This document shows positions 39,925 through 44,431 of a stretch of DNA of 46,555 nucleotides, piece after piece. The position numbers and the translations under genes are program-made. The stretch is from contig CAMYIZ010000051.1 of assembly GCA_947258585.1 (NCBI GenBank), forward strand, positions 1 through 46,555, given 5' to 3'. Position 1 is the stretch's first letter. Every line of letters begins with the position of its first letter. The stretch comes from an uncultured Haliea sp. (GTDB taxonomy: Bacteria; Pseudomonadota; Gammaproteobacteria; Pseudomonadales; Halieaceae). The notes under the pieces are model-generated. The model was not told the origin of the DNA. It searched no databases and saw only the letters and a list, made by a program, of their open reading frames with translations.

Positions 39925-39945
39925 CTACCGGCCCGGGGTCCCCGC

Positions 39946-39993
39946 GGCCGGCATCCCGGTGGCCGGCACTCCGGTGGCCGGCATCCCGGTGGC
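39946..39993. repeat. 15-bp minisatellite, 3.2 copies
   Basis: GGCCGGCATCCCGGT at 39946-39960 and 39976-39990, with a two-base variant (GGCCGGCACTCCGGT) between them and three further bases after. It lies just after the SIMPL stop codon and is non-coding. Confidence 0.75.
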
Positions 39994-40013
39994 AAAAAAG
40001 TTCTGATTTCCCC

Positions 40014-40040
40014 GGAATAAACTGGGGGCCCCGTCCGTCT
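40014..40040 (+). promoter_or_regulatory. ECF-type promoter candidate firing into the non-coding gap
   Basis: GGAATAAA (-35 type, from 40014) and CGTCT (-10 type, 40036-40040), with 17 bp between GGAAT and CGTC. It matches in pattern and spacing the two elements flanking the ECF sigma gene at 41556-41581 and 41589-41614. An A/T-rich stretch precedes it. Transcription would begin near 40047. Confidence 0.5.
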
Positions 40041-40126
40041 TAACATTGGAAGTGGAGTGAAACCCAAACTTGAGGGGGCAGTATCAGGCGTCCTGGATGG
40101 TAAATCGGGTGCCTTAAAGGGAATTC

Positions 40127-40210
40127 ATGCGCCCTTCGCTGCCCGCCTCCATTTTCGTTGGGATACCGCTGAGGTTGACTGAGCAAAAGGTGCTAACCAA
40201 CCGGCTGTGA
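40127..40210 (+). CDS. Possible 27-residue small protein inside the candidate RNA
   Basis: An ATG at 40127 preceded by AAAGGGA (5 nt away) opens a frame of 27 codons, beginning MRPSLPASIFVGIPL and ending VLTNRL, then TGA. It has a good ribosome site and basic-hydrophobic content but no recognisable similarity. It may be chance; the RNA could be regulatory, coding, or both. Confidence 0.25.
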   Translation: MRPSLPASIFVGIPLRLTEQKVLTNRL

Positions 40211-40281
40211 AGGATTCCTGGGTCAGGGAACTCGATGCCTCTGGACAGGGTGGGGACCGCTAGCCCTCCAGCCCTGAACTA

Positions 40282-40326
40282 CAGGGTTTATTGCCAGCTT
40301 CTGGTGATAAGCCCTGCTTCTTTTTT
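40282..40326 (+). terminator. Strong intrinsic terminator overlapping the anti-sigma 3' end
   Basis: Arms at 40282-40297 and 40301-40316 pair over all 16 positions (13 Watson-Crick, 3 G-T) around a CTT loop, then CTTC and six T. The T run is on the plus side only, so it ends plus-strand transcripts, not the anti-sigma mRNA. Confidence 0.75.
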
Positions 40327-41016
40327 CGCCCCTAACACATCTCCCGCAGCGTTCTGGTCAATGAAGCTGGCTATACTACCGCTGTCGCCGGCGCTGGCAG
40401 GCCGGTAGGCTTCCTCGTCACGCCCGGGAAGCAGGTTGTGCGGCACAGCGATCCGGGTGGTCCAGTTGCCGCCATCACGGCAGGCGACGCCGCGGACCGA
40501 GCTGCCGGCACCTGTGAGGACATATTCGCGGCACCAGCTGCCTGCGTGGTTGGGGAAGCTGAGAACCGCGCGCAGCCGGCGACCGTCTTCCAGTGTGTCC
40601 CAGCCCGAGGCGCGGGAGGGCAGGGTTTCCAGGGCGGCAGCAAGCAGCACATCCTGCCCCGCAATGTCGTGCCCCGCTTGCCACCTGGGAGCCAGCAGCA
40701 GGGCGGCGACGGCCGTCAGTGATGCGGCGATCGCAAGCCCCTGGCGCAGATTGCCGGGGAAGAGGGTGAGGCGATGGAGCAGGGGTCGAATAGCGGTGGG
40801 CTGTGGTTGCAGCAGTTCCCGGATGCGAGCGGGGAGAGGGGTCGTGTCGTTGGCCCCGGCGGCCTCCCGGAGTTGACTCTGCAGGGTCTCAAGCTCTGCC
40901 AGCCGGGCGCGCAGGGCTGGCTCCCGGGCCAGTCGGGATGTCAGCGTCGCGGCGACCTCAGGCTCCAGTTCACCATCGATGTAGGCGGATAAAAGCTCGA
41001 AATCTCGGTCTGTCAT
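40288..41016 (-). CDS. Anti-sigma factor, single-pass membrane protein
   Basis: A 242-residue protein next to an ECF sigma gene. The N-terminal cytoplasmic part (MTDRDFELLSAYIDGELEPE onward) is typical of anti-sigma domains but lacks the HxxxCxxC zinc motif. One membrane helix (92-110, GLAIAASLTAVAALLL) is followed by a periplasmic domain of about 130 residues with two cysteines (SWCREY, VACRDG) that may form a disulfide. The ATG at 41016 has GGAAGAG upstream and lies 14 bp after the sigma stop. It should hold the sigma factor at the membrane until an envelope signal arrives. Confidence 0.85.
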   Translation of the reverse strand: MTDRDFELLSAYIDGELEPEVAATLTSRLAREPALRARLAELETLQSQLREAAGANDTTPLPARIRELLQPQPTAIRPLLHRLTLFPGNLRQGLAIAASLTAVAALLLAPRWQAGHDIAGQDVLLAAALETLPSRASGWDTLEDGRRLRAVLSFPNHAGSWCREYVLTGAGSSVRGVACRDGGNWTTRIAVPHNLLPGRDEEAYRPASAGDSGSIASFIDQNAAGDVLGAKKEAGLITRSWQ

Positions 41017-41030
41017 AGTCTCTTCCACGT

Positions 41031-41534
41031 CTATTCCCATTCCGGGGCTTCCCGGCACTTCAACAGCTGCGCCCTGGCGCGGGCGATGCGACTCATGATG
41101 GTGCCCACCGGCACTTCCAGGATGTCTGCGGCCTCGGCATAACTCTTGCCTTCGACCGCCACCAGAGTCAGGGCGAGGCGCTGTTCCGGTGGCAGTTTTC
41201 CCAGTGCCGCGGTCAGGGCTTCCAGGGCCCTTTCCTGTCCCGCACTCTCCTCCGCCGACGGTACCTCGTCGCTGTCCCACGCCATCTGCTGGGGATAGCG
41301 CTGCCTGACTTCCCGGGACCGGAGTTCATCGATCCAGGCGTTCTTGCAGACCCGATAGGCCCACTTGACAGCATCCGCATCAGCAGGCATACCCTTCTCC
41401 AGGATACGCTCCACTGTCATCTGCAGCAGGTCGTCCGCGTCCGAGGCTGACCCGCTCAGTGACTGACAGAAGCGGCGCAAGCTGCCGAGTTCTGCCAGTA
41501 GAAGTTCTCGCTGTGGGGTGCTCAGCGATGGCAT
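41031..41534 (-). CDS. ECF-type RNA polymerase sigma factor
   Basis: A 167-residue sigma factor with region 2 (SASDADDLLQMTVERIL, YRVCKNAWIDELRSR) and region 4 (LPPEQRLALTLVAVEGKSYAEAADIL, VGTIMSRIARARAQL). The ATG at 41534 with AGGA upstream gives standard ECF length; the longer frame to 41660 is not needed and would span its own promoter candidate. It directs the polymerase to a small regulon, probably through the GGAAT-N16/17-CGTC elements on each side. The group within ECF families was not determined. Confidence 0.93.
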   Translation of the reverse strand: MPSLSTPQRELLLAELGSLRRFCQSLSGSASDADDLLQMTVERILEKGMPADADAVKWAYRVCKNAWIDELRSREVRQRYPQQMAWDSDEVPSAEESAGQERALEALTAALGKLPPEQRLALTLVAVEGKSYAEAADILEVPVGTIMSRIARARAQLLKCREAPEWE

Positions 41535-41555
41535 AATGGTCCTGTTACTGGATAT

Positions 41556-41581
41556 GACGGATAGCTGCGTGATTCTATTCC
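41556..41581 (-). promoter_or_regulatory. ECF-type promoter candidate of the sigma/anti-sigma operon
   Basis: Minus strand: GGAATAG from 41581 and CGTCA from 41559, with 17 bp between GGAAT and CGTC. It lies 22-47 bp upstream of the sigma start codon and fits autoregulation. Confidence 0.55.
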
Positions 41582-41588
41582 ATTTGCT

Positions 41589-41614
41589 GGAATTATTCGC
41601 GTTCTGATTCGTCT
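41589..41614 (+). promoter_or_regulatory. ECF-type promoter candidate of the subtilisin-like protease gene
   Basis: Plus strand: GGAATTATT from 41589 and CGTCT at 41610-41614, with 16 bp between GGAAT and CGTC. It is back-to-back with the sigma operon promoter, only 8 bp from it, and about 31 bp before the first start codon of the protease frame. Confidence 0.55.
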
Positions 41615-41644: not shown

Positions 41645-43336
41645 GTGAAGATCGTGCCACAGTGTAACGGTTTCAGAATGCGCTCTGTTTGTGAGCGGTC
41701 AAGACTGGGCGCGCAGCGCGCACTGCTTGCCATGCCGCTCGCCATGATCCTGCTGTGGGCGGCCCCGCCATTCCTGCACAGTGCCCAGGCCCAGGTTCCC
41801 TGCTGCATGGATGAATCCGAATTCGAGGAGCGCGTCGAGGAGGAGGTAGAAGAGGAAGTCGAGGAACAGATCGAGGGCCGTGTGGATCAGGCGGTCGGTG
41901 AGACCATTGAGGAGTCGATAGAGGAAACCATCCAGGACAGTATCGACGACTCCGTGGAATCGACGATCGAGGAGACCGTCGCCGGCGTCGTTGAGGAAAC
42001 CGTCGAGGAATCGGTCGAGGAATCAGTCGAAGATTCGGTCGAGGAATCGGTGGCGGCTACGGTGGAAGAGTCGGTCGAGGAGTCCGTTGAAGAGACTGTA
42101 ACGGGCAAGGTCGAGCAATCCGTGGCGTCCTCGGTGGAGGAATCGATCGAGGATACGGTGGAGGAAACAGTGGCGGTCTCGCTGGAGGAGACGGTAGAGT
42201 TTTCCCTGGCCGATGCCATCGAAGAGCGGCTCGAGACCGAAATCGACAGCGTGGTCGATGAGCTTGAAAGCCGCCTGGAAATCGACGAGGCGCGCATCAA
42301 CACCCAGCAGTGGCTGGTCATGGCCGAACCGGAAGTGTTCGATGAGCTGGCGGTCAAGGGTTACCTGTTCGACCGCGTGACCGACCTGCCGGGAATGGGC
42401 CTGCTGCTGGCGGAGGTGGAAGCGCCATCAAGCTTTGAGATCTACGATGTTCGCGAAGGGGTCATCGATGTAGTAGGCCGGGGGCGCGCAGAAGTGGACC
42501 TCAATCACGTCTACACTGCCGGGGCCCCGGTACAGCACACCGTCGAGGGCAGCACTCCTCGCTCGGTCCTGCGCTTCCCTGCGGACATCGAGGATATGCC
42601 CCTGCGCCTGGGCATGATTGACAGTCTGGTCGACATTGCACACCCGGCGCTCAACCGGGCCAATATACACCGGCAGGCGTTTGCCAGCGAAGAAGCCAAC
42701 ATGCCGTCTGCTCACGGTACTGCCATCGCCTCGATATTCATTGGTCGTGACCAGAGCTACCTGGGTCTTGCGCCCCAGGCGGAGCTGTATGCCGCCGCTG
42801 TGTTTGAGCAGGACCCCACTCGCGGCGAAATTGCCAGTACGGTCAGTCTGGTACGGGCGCTGGACTGGCTGATGTCCTCCGGCGTCAATGTCATCAACAT
42901 TTCCCTGGCCGGGCCGCCCAACCGCCTGCTGGAAAAAGCCCTGGACCGCGCGGCTCTGCGCGGGGTGGTGATTCTCGCGGCGGCGGGTAACGGTGGCCCG
43001 ATGGCGAAACCCATGTACCCCGCGGCTTACACGTCGGTAATTGCGGTAACCGCGGTTGACGCCAGTGGCCGGATTTTCCGCCTGGCCAACCGGGGCGATT
43101 ACGTTGATCTTGCAGCCCCGGGTGTGGGTTTGCTGCACGCGCGTTCGGGAGGGGGCTACGCGACCTCTTCAGGGACCTCTTTCGCAGTGCCTTTCGTCGC
43201 GACGGCGGCCGCACGCCTGCGGCTGCTGTCACCGTTGGAGGATATTCGAGCCGCGCTGATTCGCAGCGTCCAGGATGAAGGTTCTCCCGGGAGAGACGAT
43301 ACCTACGGGTATGGCGTGTTGCGGTTCGCGGGCTGA
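41645..43336 (+). CDS. Exported subtilisin-like (S8) protease with acidic tetrapeptide-repeat region
   Basis: A 563-residue protein. A signal peptide (to about residue 49, LLWAAPPFLHSAQA) precedes a very acidic region (57-215) made of four-residue units such as EESV and EETV, then a linker (220-310) and a compact subtilase domain with D326 (GMIDSLVD), H357 (SAHGTAIAS), N449 (AAAGNGG) and S512 (SSGTSFAVPF). The catalytic triad looks intact. The GTG at 41645 or ATG at 41678 may be the start. It diverges from the ECF sigma gene behind a matching promoter, so it is a likely member of that regulon. Its stop abuts the stop of the barrel gene. Confidence 0.88.
   Translation: MKIVPQCNGFRMRSVCERSRLGAQRALLAMPLAMILLWAAPPFLHSAQAQVPCCMDESEFEERVEEEVEEEVEEQIEGRVDQAVGETIEESIEETIQDSIDDSVESTIEETVAGVVEETVEESVEESVEDSVEESVAATVEESVEESVEETVTGKVEQSVASSVEESIEDTVEETVAVSLEETVEFSLADAIEERLETEIDSVVDELESRLEIDEARINTQQWLVMAEPEVFDELAVKGYLFDRVTDLPGMGLLLAEVEAPSSFEIYDVREGVIDVVGRGRAEVDLNHVYTAGAPVQHTVEGSTPRSVLRFPADIEDMPLRLGMIDSLVDIAHPALNRANIHRQAFASEEANMPSAHGTAIASIFIGRDQSYLGLAPQAELYAAAVFEQDPTRGEIASTVSLVRALDWLMSSGVNVINISLAGPPNRLLEKALDRAALRGVVILAAAGNGGPMAKPMYPAAYTSVIAVTAVDASGRIFRLANRGDYVDLAAPGVGLLHARSGGGYATSSGTSFAVPFVATAAARLRLLSPLEDIRAALIRSVQDEGSPGRDDTYGYGVLRFAG
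41903..42199 (+). repeat. Degenerate 12-bp coding repeat (four-residue units)
   Basis: Encodes about 25 units of the form (S/T)(V/I)E(E/D), residues 87-185 of the protease. A branched aliphatic residue recurs every fourth position almost without break. The DNA units are diverged in the third codon positions (GTCGAGGAA, GTGGAAGAG), so the protein pattern is kept by selection or old expansion. Confidence 0.8.
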
Positions 43337-44284
43337 TTACCAGCGGTATACGAAACGGGTGCCAAGGATTCCCTGCTCGTAATCGCTGATCTGGAAGTTG
43401 GATTTGTAGTCGCTGTACGCCGCGTATAGCTGCAGGGCGCTGCTGGCTGTCAACGGGTATTCAAGGTCGATCTGCCAACGGTGGCGCTGGTCTGCGCGCT
43501 CGTCCCCCACGTCGTTGCCGATGCCGGGCGTGATTCCGCCGTAGTCGCGCTCCTCGTAGCGATAAGCCAGTTCCAGTTTCAGGGATTTTCCATCGAGGTC
43601 GATACGGCGGATATAGCGCAGTTTGGCGGCGTGGGCCTGGTAGTCCAGGCGCTCCAGCGCTGCGTCTTCAGCCTTGTAGCGATAACCAAAGTTGAAGTAG
43701 CTGCGCAGGCCCCGGGAAAAGTAGTAAAGGTCCAGCTCGCCATTGTGGGTTTGCGCATCCCGCTCGGGCCGATCCACGATCCGTTTGTCGGCCAGCACAT
43801 AGGCCACCCGGGTGAACAGCTTGCGGTTGATGAAGCCGGACAGTGAGGGCGACACCCGGTACAGCTCGAGGAAACCCTTGCCGTCCAGCAGCGAATTCAC
43901 GTAGAACAGTGACAGGCCGGTGTCCACGGCTTGCATCTTCACGCCAAGGTTGGCGCCAAGGATGTGGGATTGGCGGTTGAGGCGTGAGAACTCCTGAAAC
44001 AGGTCCTGGCTGAAATCGTAGGTTAGTCGCAGGTCGGTGTCCTGGGTGAAATACGTTCGCAGGCTGAGCTTGGCATCCAGCGCCAGCGCGTAGTCTCCCT
44101 GGCGAATGCTGGTGTCGAGTTCATCAATGGTGACGTTGCTGTCGTACTCGCCGCCGACACCGATTTCCGCCGAGTAGCTGGTTGGCGGTGGAGCGGGGGG
44201 CGCGTCATCTGCCAGGCACCACACCGCGGTCAAGCTCAGGGGCAGGGCAGCTAGCCTGTAGAGGATGGGGCAGGGCCGTTGCAT
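43337..44284 (-). CDS. Outer-membrane beta-barrel protein, unknown role
   Basis: Unrecognised 315-residue protein with a signal peptide (YRLAALPLSLTAVWCLA), a proline-rich linker (PPAPPPTSY) and many amphipathic strands with alternating aromatic residues (YALALDAKLSLRTYF, LRLTYDFSQDLF, RSYFNFGYRYK, LKLELAYRYEERDY), ending in RFVYRW, the C-terminal aromatic signature of outer-membrane barrels. EIGVGGEYDSNVTID near the start recalls surface-lipoprotein-assembly-modifier-like barrels. It meets the protease gene stop to stop with no gap. No ECF-type promoter was found upstream of it. Confidence 0.78.
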   Translation of the reverse strand: MQRPCPILYRLAALPLSLTAVWCLADDAPPAPPPTSYSAEIGVGGEYDSNVTIDELDTSIRQGDYALALDAKLSLRTYFTQDTDLRLTYDFSQDLFQEFSRLNRQSHILGANLGVKMQAVDTGLSLFYVNSLLDGKGFLELYRVSPSLSGFINRKLFTRVAYVLADKRIVDRPERDAQTHNGELDLYYFSRGLRSYFNFGYRYKAEDAALERLDYQAHAAKLRYIRRIDLDGKSLKLELAYRYEERDYGGITPGIGNDVGDERADQRHRWQIDLEYPLTASSALQLYAAYSDYKSNFQISDYEQGILGTRFVYRW

Positions 44285-44431
44285 GCCTGGCTTCCTGAGG
44301 GCTGTCGTGAGGGAAACAGGAGACTACCCAATGGTGCCGGGAGGAACAAGGCTTTGTGTTGGCTTTGTAGTGATTTGCCGCTAGCGCTGATGGCCGTGCG
44401 GTGTTTGCCCGCAGGGACGAATCGGCGCAAA

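Follow-up and report, generated by a model that had tools for sequence, protein, structure and literature searches.

A conserved and structured RNA gene beside an ECF sigma factor operon in Halieaceae

A conserved RNA gene, which seems to represent an undescribed RNA family, adjoins the operon of an ECF sigma factor and its anti-sigma factor in many Halieaceae. It is described here from a stretch of 46,555 nucleotides of an uncultured Haliea sp. (contig CAMYIZ010000051.1), which is called the window in the following and to which all coordinates refer. Because this conserved RNA stands next to the sigma operon under the sigma factor's own kind of promoter, it is best read as a regulatory output, and the genomic evidence makes it probable that it is a sigma-dependent noncoding RNA that serves as output arm of the ECF regulon and acts in trans. 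The promoter motif, the conserved structure, the linkage to the sigma gene and the absence of a conserved reading frame, on which this reading is built, can be taken directly from the compared sequences.

In the window, an ECF-type promoter on the plus strand (GGAAT-N17-CGTCT, 40014-40040, found by pattern search) precedes the RNA gene at 40047-40326, both ends of which are predicted, the 5' end from the promoter and the 3' end from the T run. The 5' module (40049-40158, plus strand) consists of a P0 hairpin with AGUGGAGUGAAAC followed by the helices P1 to P3 and was matched with 30.6 bits (E 4.9e-5) by the covariance model R2, from which the window's own sequence is absent. The 3' module (40244-40324, plus strand) was matched with 91.8 bits (E 2e-20) by the model R1, which includes the window's sequence, and comprises the hairpin H3 (40246-40276, from alignment A1), with GCUAGC in the loop at 40259-40264, as well as the intrinsic terminator (40282-40326), in which a 16-bp stem (40282-40316, loop of 3) is followed by the T6 run CTTCTTTTTT. 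On the minus strand, the anti-sigma gene (40288-41016), recognized by weak RseA_N and zf-HC2 matches below the Pfam cut-offs, and the ECF sigma factor gene (41031-41534; Pfam Sigma70_r2 and r4_2) follow a promoter read off the sequence as GGAAT-N17-CGTCA (41555-41581, minus strand). A subtilase-family (S8) protease gene (41645-43336, plus strand; Peptidase_S8, E 4.2e-30), which is context outside the RNA, is divergent from the sigma gene and stands behind its own GGAAT-N16-CGTCT promoter (41589-41614, plus strand, pattern search); further neighbours encode a SIMPL protein and a sensor kinase according to Pfam. The plus-strand unit that an earlier note on this DNA had described at 40014-40326, i.e. 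a promoter and a 16-bp terminator with T6 that are separated by about 240 bp lacking a usual gene, was found as claimed, and the stretch of about 240 bp contains short frames only, including one of 41 codons from a GTG. The same promoter type is likewise present before the sigma gene (41581-41555, minus strand) and the protease gene, and the 3' end of the RNA is antisense to the end of the anti-sigma coding region over 39 nt, which the note had given as 40 nt.

Within the window, GGAAT-N16-18-CGTCT gave 2 matches compared to 0.19 expected, and at least 2 matches were obtained in 2 of 100 shuffles. The number of terminator-like sites between 37000 and 43500 is not above chance (3 found vs 3.5 expected); the 16-bp terminator stem is beyond chance, the longest stem in 40 resampled copies being 11. 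The feature as a whole goes beyond chance because it is conserved, as was revealed by blastn and the covariance models. Immediately upstream of the RNA promoter, a tandem repeat with 3.2 copies of the 15-bp unit GGCCGGCATCCCGGT occupies 39946-39993.

When 97 genomes were searched by blastn with positions 40000-40340, 22 of them gave matches, that of the window among them; these belong to 10 genera, and none lies outside the family. The promoter combined with AGYGGRGTGAAAC retrieved 29 stretches from the GTDB contig collection (84,980 species), 24 of them titled Halieaceae or a genus therein, where some of the genus placements are presumed by us, and 5 titled just gammaproteobacterium. The 3' model R1 matched 39 of 140 family genomes in 18 of 28 genera, with one full-length match each, to which a partial one from the other strand of that hairpin is added in G039, and the 5' model R2 matched 36 of the 140 genomes in 17 of the 28 genera, once each, thereby contributing G020, G042, G028 and G021 beyond R1. 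G010 and G055 were added by eye, and the R1 match in G015 (L112) was dropped, since a promoter is missing there and, judged by eye, the match coincides with the end of another gene. With these changes the RNA is found in 44 of 140 Halieaceae genomes and in 21 of 28 genera; the covariance search that had been proposed in the earlier note thus places it in the family beyond the blastn set. In a sample of 390 genomes of the order, which may not include Acinetobacter, R1 matched 10 family genomes and gave no match outside the family. In the same sample, R2 matched 12 genomes of the family and, at E 0.004, two from outside it; both lack the layout of the locus and are regarded as chance matches: no promoter is seen in L148 (G245) within the 100 nt inspected, and L149 (G259) has neither GUGGAGUGAAAC nor a promoter with the right spacing.

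The RNA is linked to the sigma factor by its genomic position. The RNA and a homologous ECF sigma gene are located on one contig in 42 of the 44 RNA genomes; they lie near the ends of different contigs in G103, and the sigma gene was not found in G016, a 66% complete genome with the RNA near a contig start. The sigma protein was detected at E <= 1e-40 in 69 of 140 family genomes, among them 43 of the 44 with the RNA. The remaining 26 sigma genomes without a recognized RNA comprise 23 of genus g13, of which 8 were inspected over the full region, G043, where the contig ends, G099, the region of which lay outside the inspection, and G015.

The promoter provides the second link to the sigma factor. 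The motif GGRATAR-N13-17-CGTY was found upstream of 38 of 39 R1 matches compared to 0 of 117 control stretches, which is to be read with the facts that R1 itself contains no promoter, and that most R1 matches are model members, part of which were originally found via the promoter pattern. The motif is also present in all 22 loci obtained by blastn, i.e. by a search free of promoter-based selection, and in 6 of the 7 R1 matches that were reached by neither blastn nor the promoter pattern (present in G100, G025, G160, G036, G011 and G059, absent in G015). A GGRATAW / CGTY site stands upstream of the sigma gene in 22 of 26 sigma-bearing loci; the promoter of the RNA resembles that of the sigma gene itself, which is one mark of an ECF-sigma-dependent sRNA. 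The earlier note had made its reading depend on the conservation of promoter and terminator in relatives that keep the sigma and anti-sigma genes, and promoter, stems and mostly also the terminator are indeed kept in near and far relatives. Genome-wide, the strict promoter motif occurred 2 to 8 times per genome compared to 0 to 5 times for the reversed control in 7 genomes; the size of the regulon is unproven, because the two counts are close in G000 (3 vs 2). At locus L072 of G039, a GGAATAA-N15-CGTC site starts 66 nt upstream of the start of a pseudopilin-like gene (GspG-like by eye), which is possibly a further target of the sigma factor in that genus.

The anatomy of the RNA was analyzed with 32 distinct copies, which were extracted by a pattern requiring the promoter, the 5' motif and GCTAGC/G; L023 and L024 were left out as second pieces of L005 and L006, and L034, which judged by its length is the contig of G028/L121, is not among the copies either. 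Alignment A1 contains 31 of the 32 copies, L048 being omitted for its differing terminator, while A2 and A3 contain 28 and 14, respectively. The P0 hairpin at the predicted 5' end carries the near-invariant AGUGGAGUGAAAC, and is followed by P1 (GAGG/CCUC), P2 and P3 with a UUGGGU bulge, which is near-invariant in the relatives and degenerate in the window copy. The middle of the RNA, between the 5' module and H3, is variable. GCTAGC in the H3 loop is invariant in 31 of 31 A1 rows and 32 of 32 distinct copies, which had been extracted through GCTAGC/G, and GCUAGC recurs in L108, L109, L110, L111 and L122. The GCUAGC hairpin is lost or unrecognized in G010, G020, G042, G055, G028 and G059, and scanning of L118 and L121 from such genomes gave no convincing terminator on the RNA strand. 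Hence, no part of the RNA is universal except the promoter and a 5' or 3' structure. The terminator loop reads CUACAUGGG in 17 of 32 copies and differs in Haliea, where it also encodes the end of the anti-sigma factor.

Helices of both modules covary. In the 3' module (A1), 94.0% of the cells pair compared to 87.3% in shuffled alignments, 54 cells are changed on both sides vs 19.4 in shuffled ones, and 9 of the 15 pairs of the terminator show double changes; the number of further pair types does not exceed that in shuffles (24 vs 23.0). In the 5' module, alignment A4, which was aligned to the 5' model and hence leans towards that structure, showed double changes at 16 of 19 pairs and in 74 cells vs 18.9 in shuffles, and slid partners reduced every measure. 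Free folding of unfitted alignments with RNAalifold strongly supported the terminator and gave weak support for the 5' alignment (8 pairs, -0.35 kcal/mol). An intrinsic terminator ends the apparently noncoding RNA in the window as well as in the 31 A1 rows. The RNA occurs in several natural forms, namely the full form, the 3' module only, the 5' module without the GCUAGC hairpin, and a tandem arrangement. Promoter, H3 and terminator alone are present in G004, G011, G036 and G160, most of the 5' module is missing in G002, and in G021 the RNA is arranged in tandem instead of being convergent with the anti-sigma gene; in several lineages the 3' module has been retained where the 5' module was lost.

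Homologous sigma/anti-sigma pairs exist at 13 loci in other families of the order, all 13 with a similar promoter before the sigma gene when a looser pattern was applied. No RNA was found beside these 13 pairs with filters off, the best E values being 0.47 for R2 and 2 for R1. When mapped on the sigma tree (58 rows), the forms of the RNA require 8 changes compared to 26.9 on average after shuffling, and the outgroup falls on one side. Because the outgroup stands apart, the RNA forms are clustered and none was found beside the outgroup pairs, it looks as if the RNA was gained in, or at the base of, the Halieaceae and was then reduced or lost in parts of the family.

We infer from these observations that the RNA is transcribed, that its transcription depends on the sigma factor, that it acts in trans and that the regulon is small. 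The neighbouring ECF sigma factor together with RNA polymerase would transcribe a noncoding RNA of about 280 nt, the promoter motif used by the sigma factor would also serve the sigma operon and the divergent subtilase gene, transcription of the RNA would stop at the intrinsic terminator, and the RNA might then pair through its exposed loops with other RNAs in trans. Action in trans is preferred to action in cis, because most loci lack an overlap with the anti-sigma gene and one locus has the tandem arrangement.

Possible pairing partners were searched with the conserved segments. The exact 11-mer complement of the H3 loop was found 12 times in 8 genomes; 8 of these occurrences represent the RNA gene itself and 4 lie elsewhere, and no mRNA site was shared; the reversed control (48 matches) is an unfair comparison, since CTAG is depleted. 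In the window, CTAG was seen 11 times vs 46 expected, so that the word in the GCUAGC loop is a rare one in this genome. When GGCTAGC was sought within 25 nt of an ATG, the reversed control matched more often in all 6 of 6 genomes. Matches of GGCTAGCGGT before ATG are scattered over 74 of 140 family genomes, RNA genes included, and the three start-proximal sites that were opened (two in G040, one in G100) were unconvincing, with mutually unlike frames of 106, 29 and 26 codons. The middle segment GUGCUAACCAA (40190-40200) is common to seven Haliea genomes and G039 (L001-L007, L009), and its complement was found in the RNA gene only in 8 of 8 genomes. These null searches for exact complements are weak evidence, because real pairings are short and imperfect and most GGCTAGCGGT sites remained unopened. 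The GCTAGC sites close to the window's outer membrane barrel gene were rejected as pairing sites, since the relatives compared do not share them. A conserved block, TTGTCG-N17-TAGTCT, stands ahead of this barrel gene (44284-44350) and of its equivalents in several relatives, and judged by eye it is probably the gene's own housekeeping sigma-70-type promoter and not a pairing site.

The lack of a shared mRNA complement in the searches for the H3 loop and GUGCUAACCAA also fits another explanation, namely that the RNA works mainly via its structure by binding a protein or pairing with itself, in which case the GCUAGC loops would kiss and the bulge together with the P0 loop would hold a protein. 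We consider this rather unlikely, although the invariance of GCTAGC in all A1 rows and copies, extracted as they were through this word, and the near invariance of the P0 sequence and UUGGGU are consistent with it. Self-pairing of the palindromic GCUAGC hexamer would yield -8.2 kcal/mol; however, the self-duplex energies of whole loops are not clearly better than those of shuffled loops (fractions as low of 0.486, 0.134 and 0.466 for three loops), GCUAGC is missing in the six genomes named above, and the candidate protein partner is hypothetical. A role as CsrA decoy, to which GGA motifs seen by eye had pointed, was considered and set aside.

The earlier note had suggested that the RNA may dampen or tune its anti-sigma factor, or act elsewhere. 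An overlap of RNA and anti-sigma gene, 38 or 39 nt long, exists in all 8 of 8 genomes of g1 (Haliea; read by eye in L003 and L004) and in g11 (G039), and the tail-to-tail arrangement might lower the anti-sigma output, or read-through from the sigma operon might silence the RNA. The latter would be antisense to the RNA, and a search behind the anti-sigma gene gave no intrinsic terminator of at least 6 bp in the 4 overlap loci tested (L001, L002, L005, L009). In contrast, the RNA end is 69-430 bp away from the anti-sigma stop in 24 distinct loci of other genera with a measurable RNA end (251 bp in L029); the RNA end of L121 is unsure, and five loci are without a recognized RNA end. L114, which has an atypical terminator, shows a gap of 4 bp. 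The sigma operon has a terminator of its own in the gap between the genes in 7 of 23 non-overlap loci, and the RNA of G021 is in tandem. The overlap is thus confined to g1 and g11 and is not kept across the relatives as would be expected for a cis-antisense RNA; it looks like a lineage-specific compaction of the locus. The proposed tuning of the anti-sigma factor therefore keeps its overlap in Haliea, where an antisense effect is possible, but it cannot be the shared function of the RNA, since most loci lack the overlap and one is in tandem. As explanation of the RNA, cis antisense appears improbable.

A bolder idea, to which we would give little credence at present, is that the RNA, instead of being a pairing sRNA, is a structured ligand, perhaps a dimer kissing through GCUAGC, that binds the sigma factor, the anti-sigma factor or the holoenzyme and thereby exerts an RNA feedback on its own switch. 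If true, it would explain the fixed place beside the operon, the two structured modules and the absence of mRNA complements.

That the transcript is instead an mRNA for a small protein, starting from the GTG in AGUGGAGUGAAAC, is very improbable. In all 7 of the 7 Haliea sequences with the GTG, the TAG of GCTAG follows it at a distance that is a multiple of 3 (40057-40263 in the window), and three of them keep the frame open, namely L003 and L004 (67 codons) and L007 (39 codons). However, it is interrupted in the other 4 of the 7, i.e. in the window (TGA at 40180-40182), L002, L005 and L006, and outside Haliea it is in phase in 4 of 24 sequences and both in phase and stop-free in L012 only. The longest frame exceeded 95% of the shuffles in 1 of 32 sequences (L029), and no reading frame is conserved between genera. 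Outside Haliea the small protein is rejected, since neither phase nor openness of the frame is kept. Convergent gene ends frequently have terminators, and the match in G015 looks like such a case, but a mere terminator with a stray promoter and no functional RNA is hardly credible in view of the covariation, which includes helices far from the terminator, the conserved promoter and the clustering on the sigma tree.

The preferred reading, a sigma-dependent noncoding RNA acting in trans, can be compared with known systems. The sigma-E-dependent sRNAs RybB, MicA and MicL of Escherichia coli are noncoding RNAs made by an envelope-type ECF sigma factor as well; they are shorter, are not encoded beside rpoE and pair with mRNAs of outer membrane proteins, whereas the Halieaceae RNA is encoded next to the sigma operon and includes a large 5' module with covariation. 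The window gave no match to Rfam 15 at gathering score, and the region 39930-40420 gave none up to E 5; among 7 related loci, two weak matches were found (E 2.6 and 4.7), both in L014, on the other strand and below the gathering scores. The statement of the earlier note that the RNA belongs to no known family is borne out in that Rfam 15 holds no credible match, and no published description of a Halieaceae RNA with an ECF sigma factor was found in the open-licence literature. According to the report on Acinetobacter baumannii, the ECF sigma factor SigAb directly controls itself, relA and the sRNA SabS, and is called Acinetobacter-specific (PMC12153292). Both systems have an ECF sigma factor with anti-sigma genes in an operon; the small direct regulon of SigAb includes the sigma factor itself and a noncoding RNA (PMC12153292), and that of Halieaceae is predicted to be of this kind. 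The SigAb promoter, GTCAAC / CGTT, differs from the GGAATAA / CGTC of Halieaceae. The Halieaceae circuit thus appears comparable to SigAb-SabS, to which it is likened by the circuit and not by RNA sequence. The earlier note had called an RNA feedback loop unusual for ECF systems; given SigAb-SabS and the sigma-E sRNAs, a sigma-dependent RNA in an ECF regulon is not unusual in itself (PMC12153292).

With the present data, a structured RNA spread over most of the sampled genera of a family is tied genetically to one ECF sigma system, hence the likely controlling sigma factor is known at once. Cultured members, for example Haliea salexigens DSM 19537, make the RNA directly testable, and its natural forms represent ready-made deletion variants. 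The findings raise the question whether an RNA, instead of a set of proteins, is the main output of some ECF systems.

Finally, some observations concern the protease gene next to the sigma operon. At three loci outside Halieaceae (L163, L164 and L165), the sigma gene likewise has a distant subtilase-like gene with 24-25% identity as divergent neighbour, towards which a similar promoter motif is directed. The subtilase of the window has a long acidic, E/V-rich stretch (41815-42280) preceding the protease domain, and an apparently similar E/V-rich stretch was seen by eye in the protease genes of L035 and L046.
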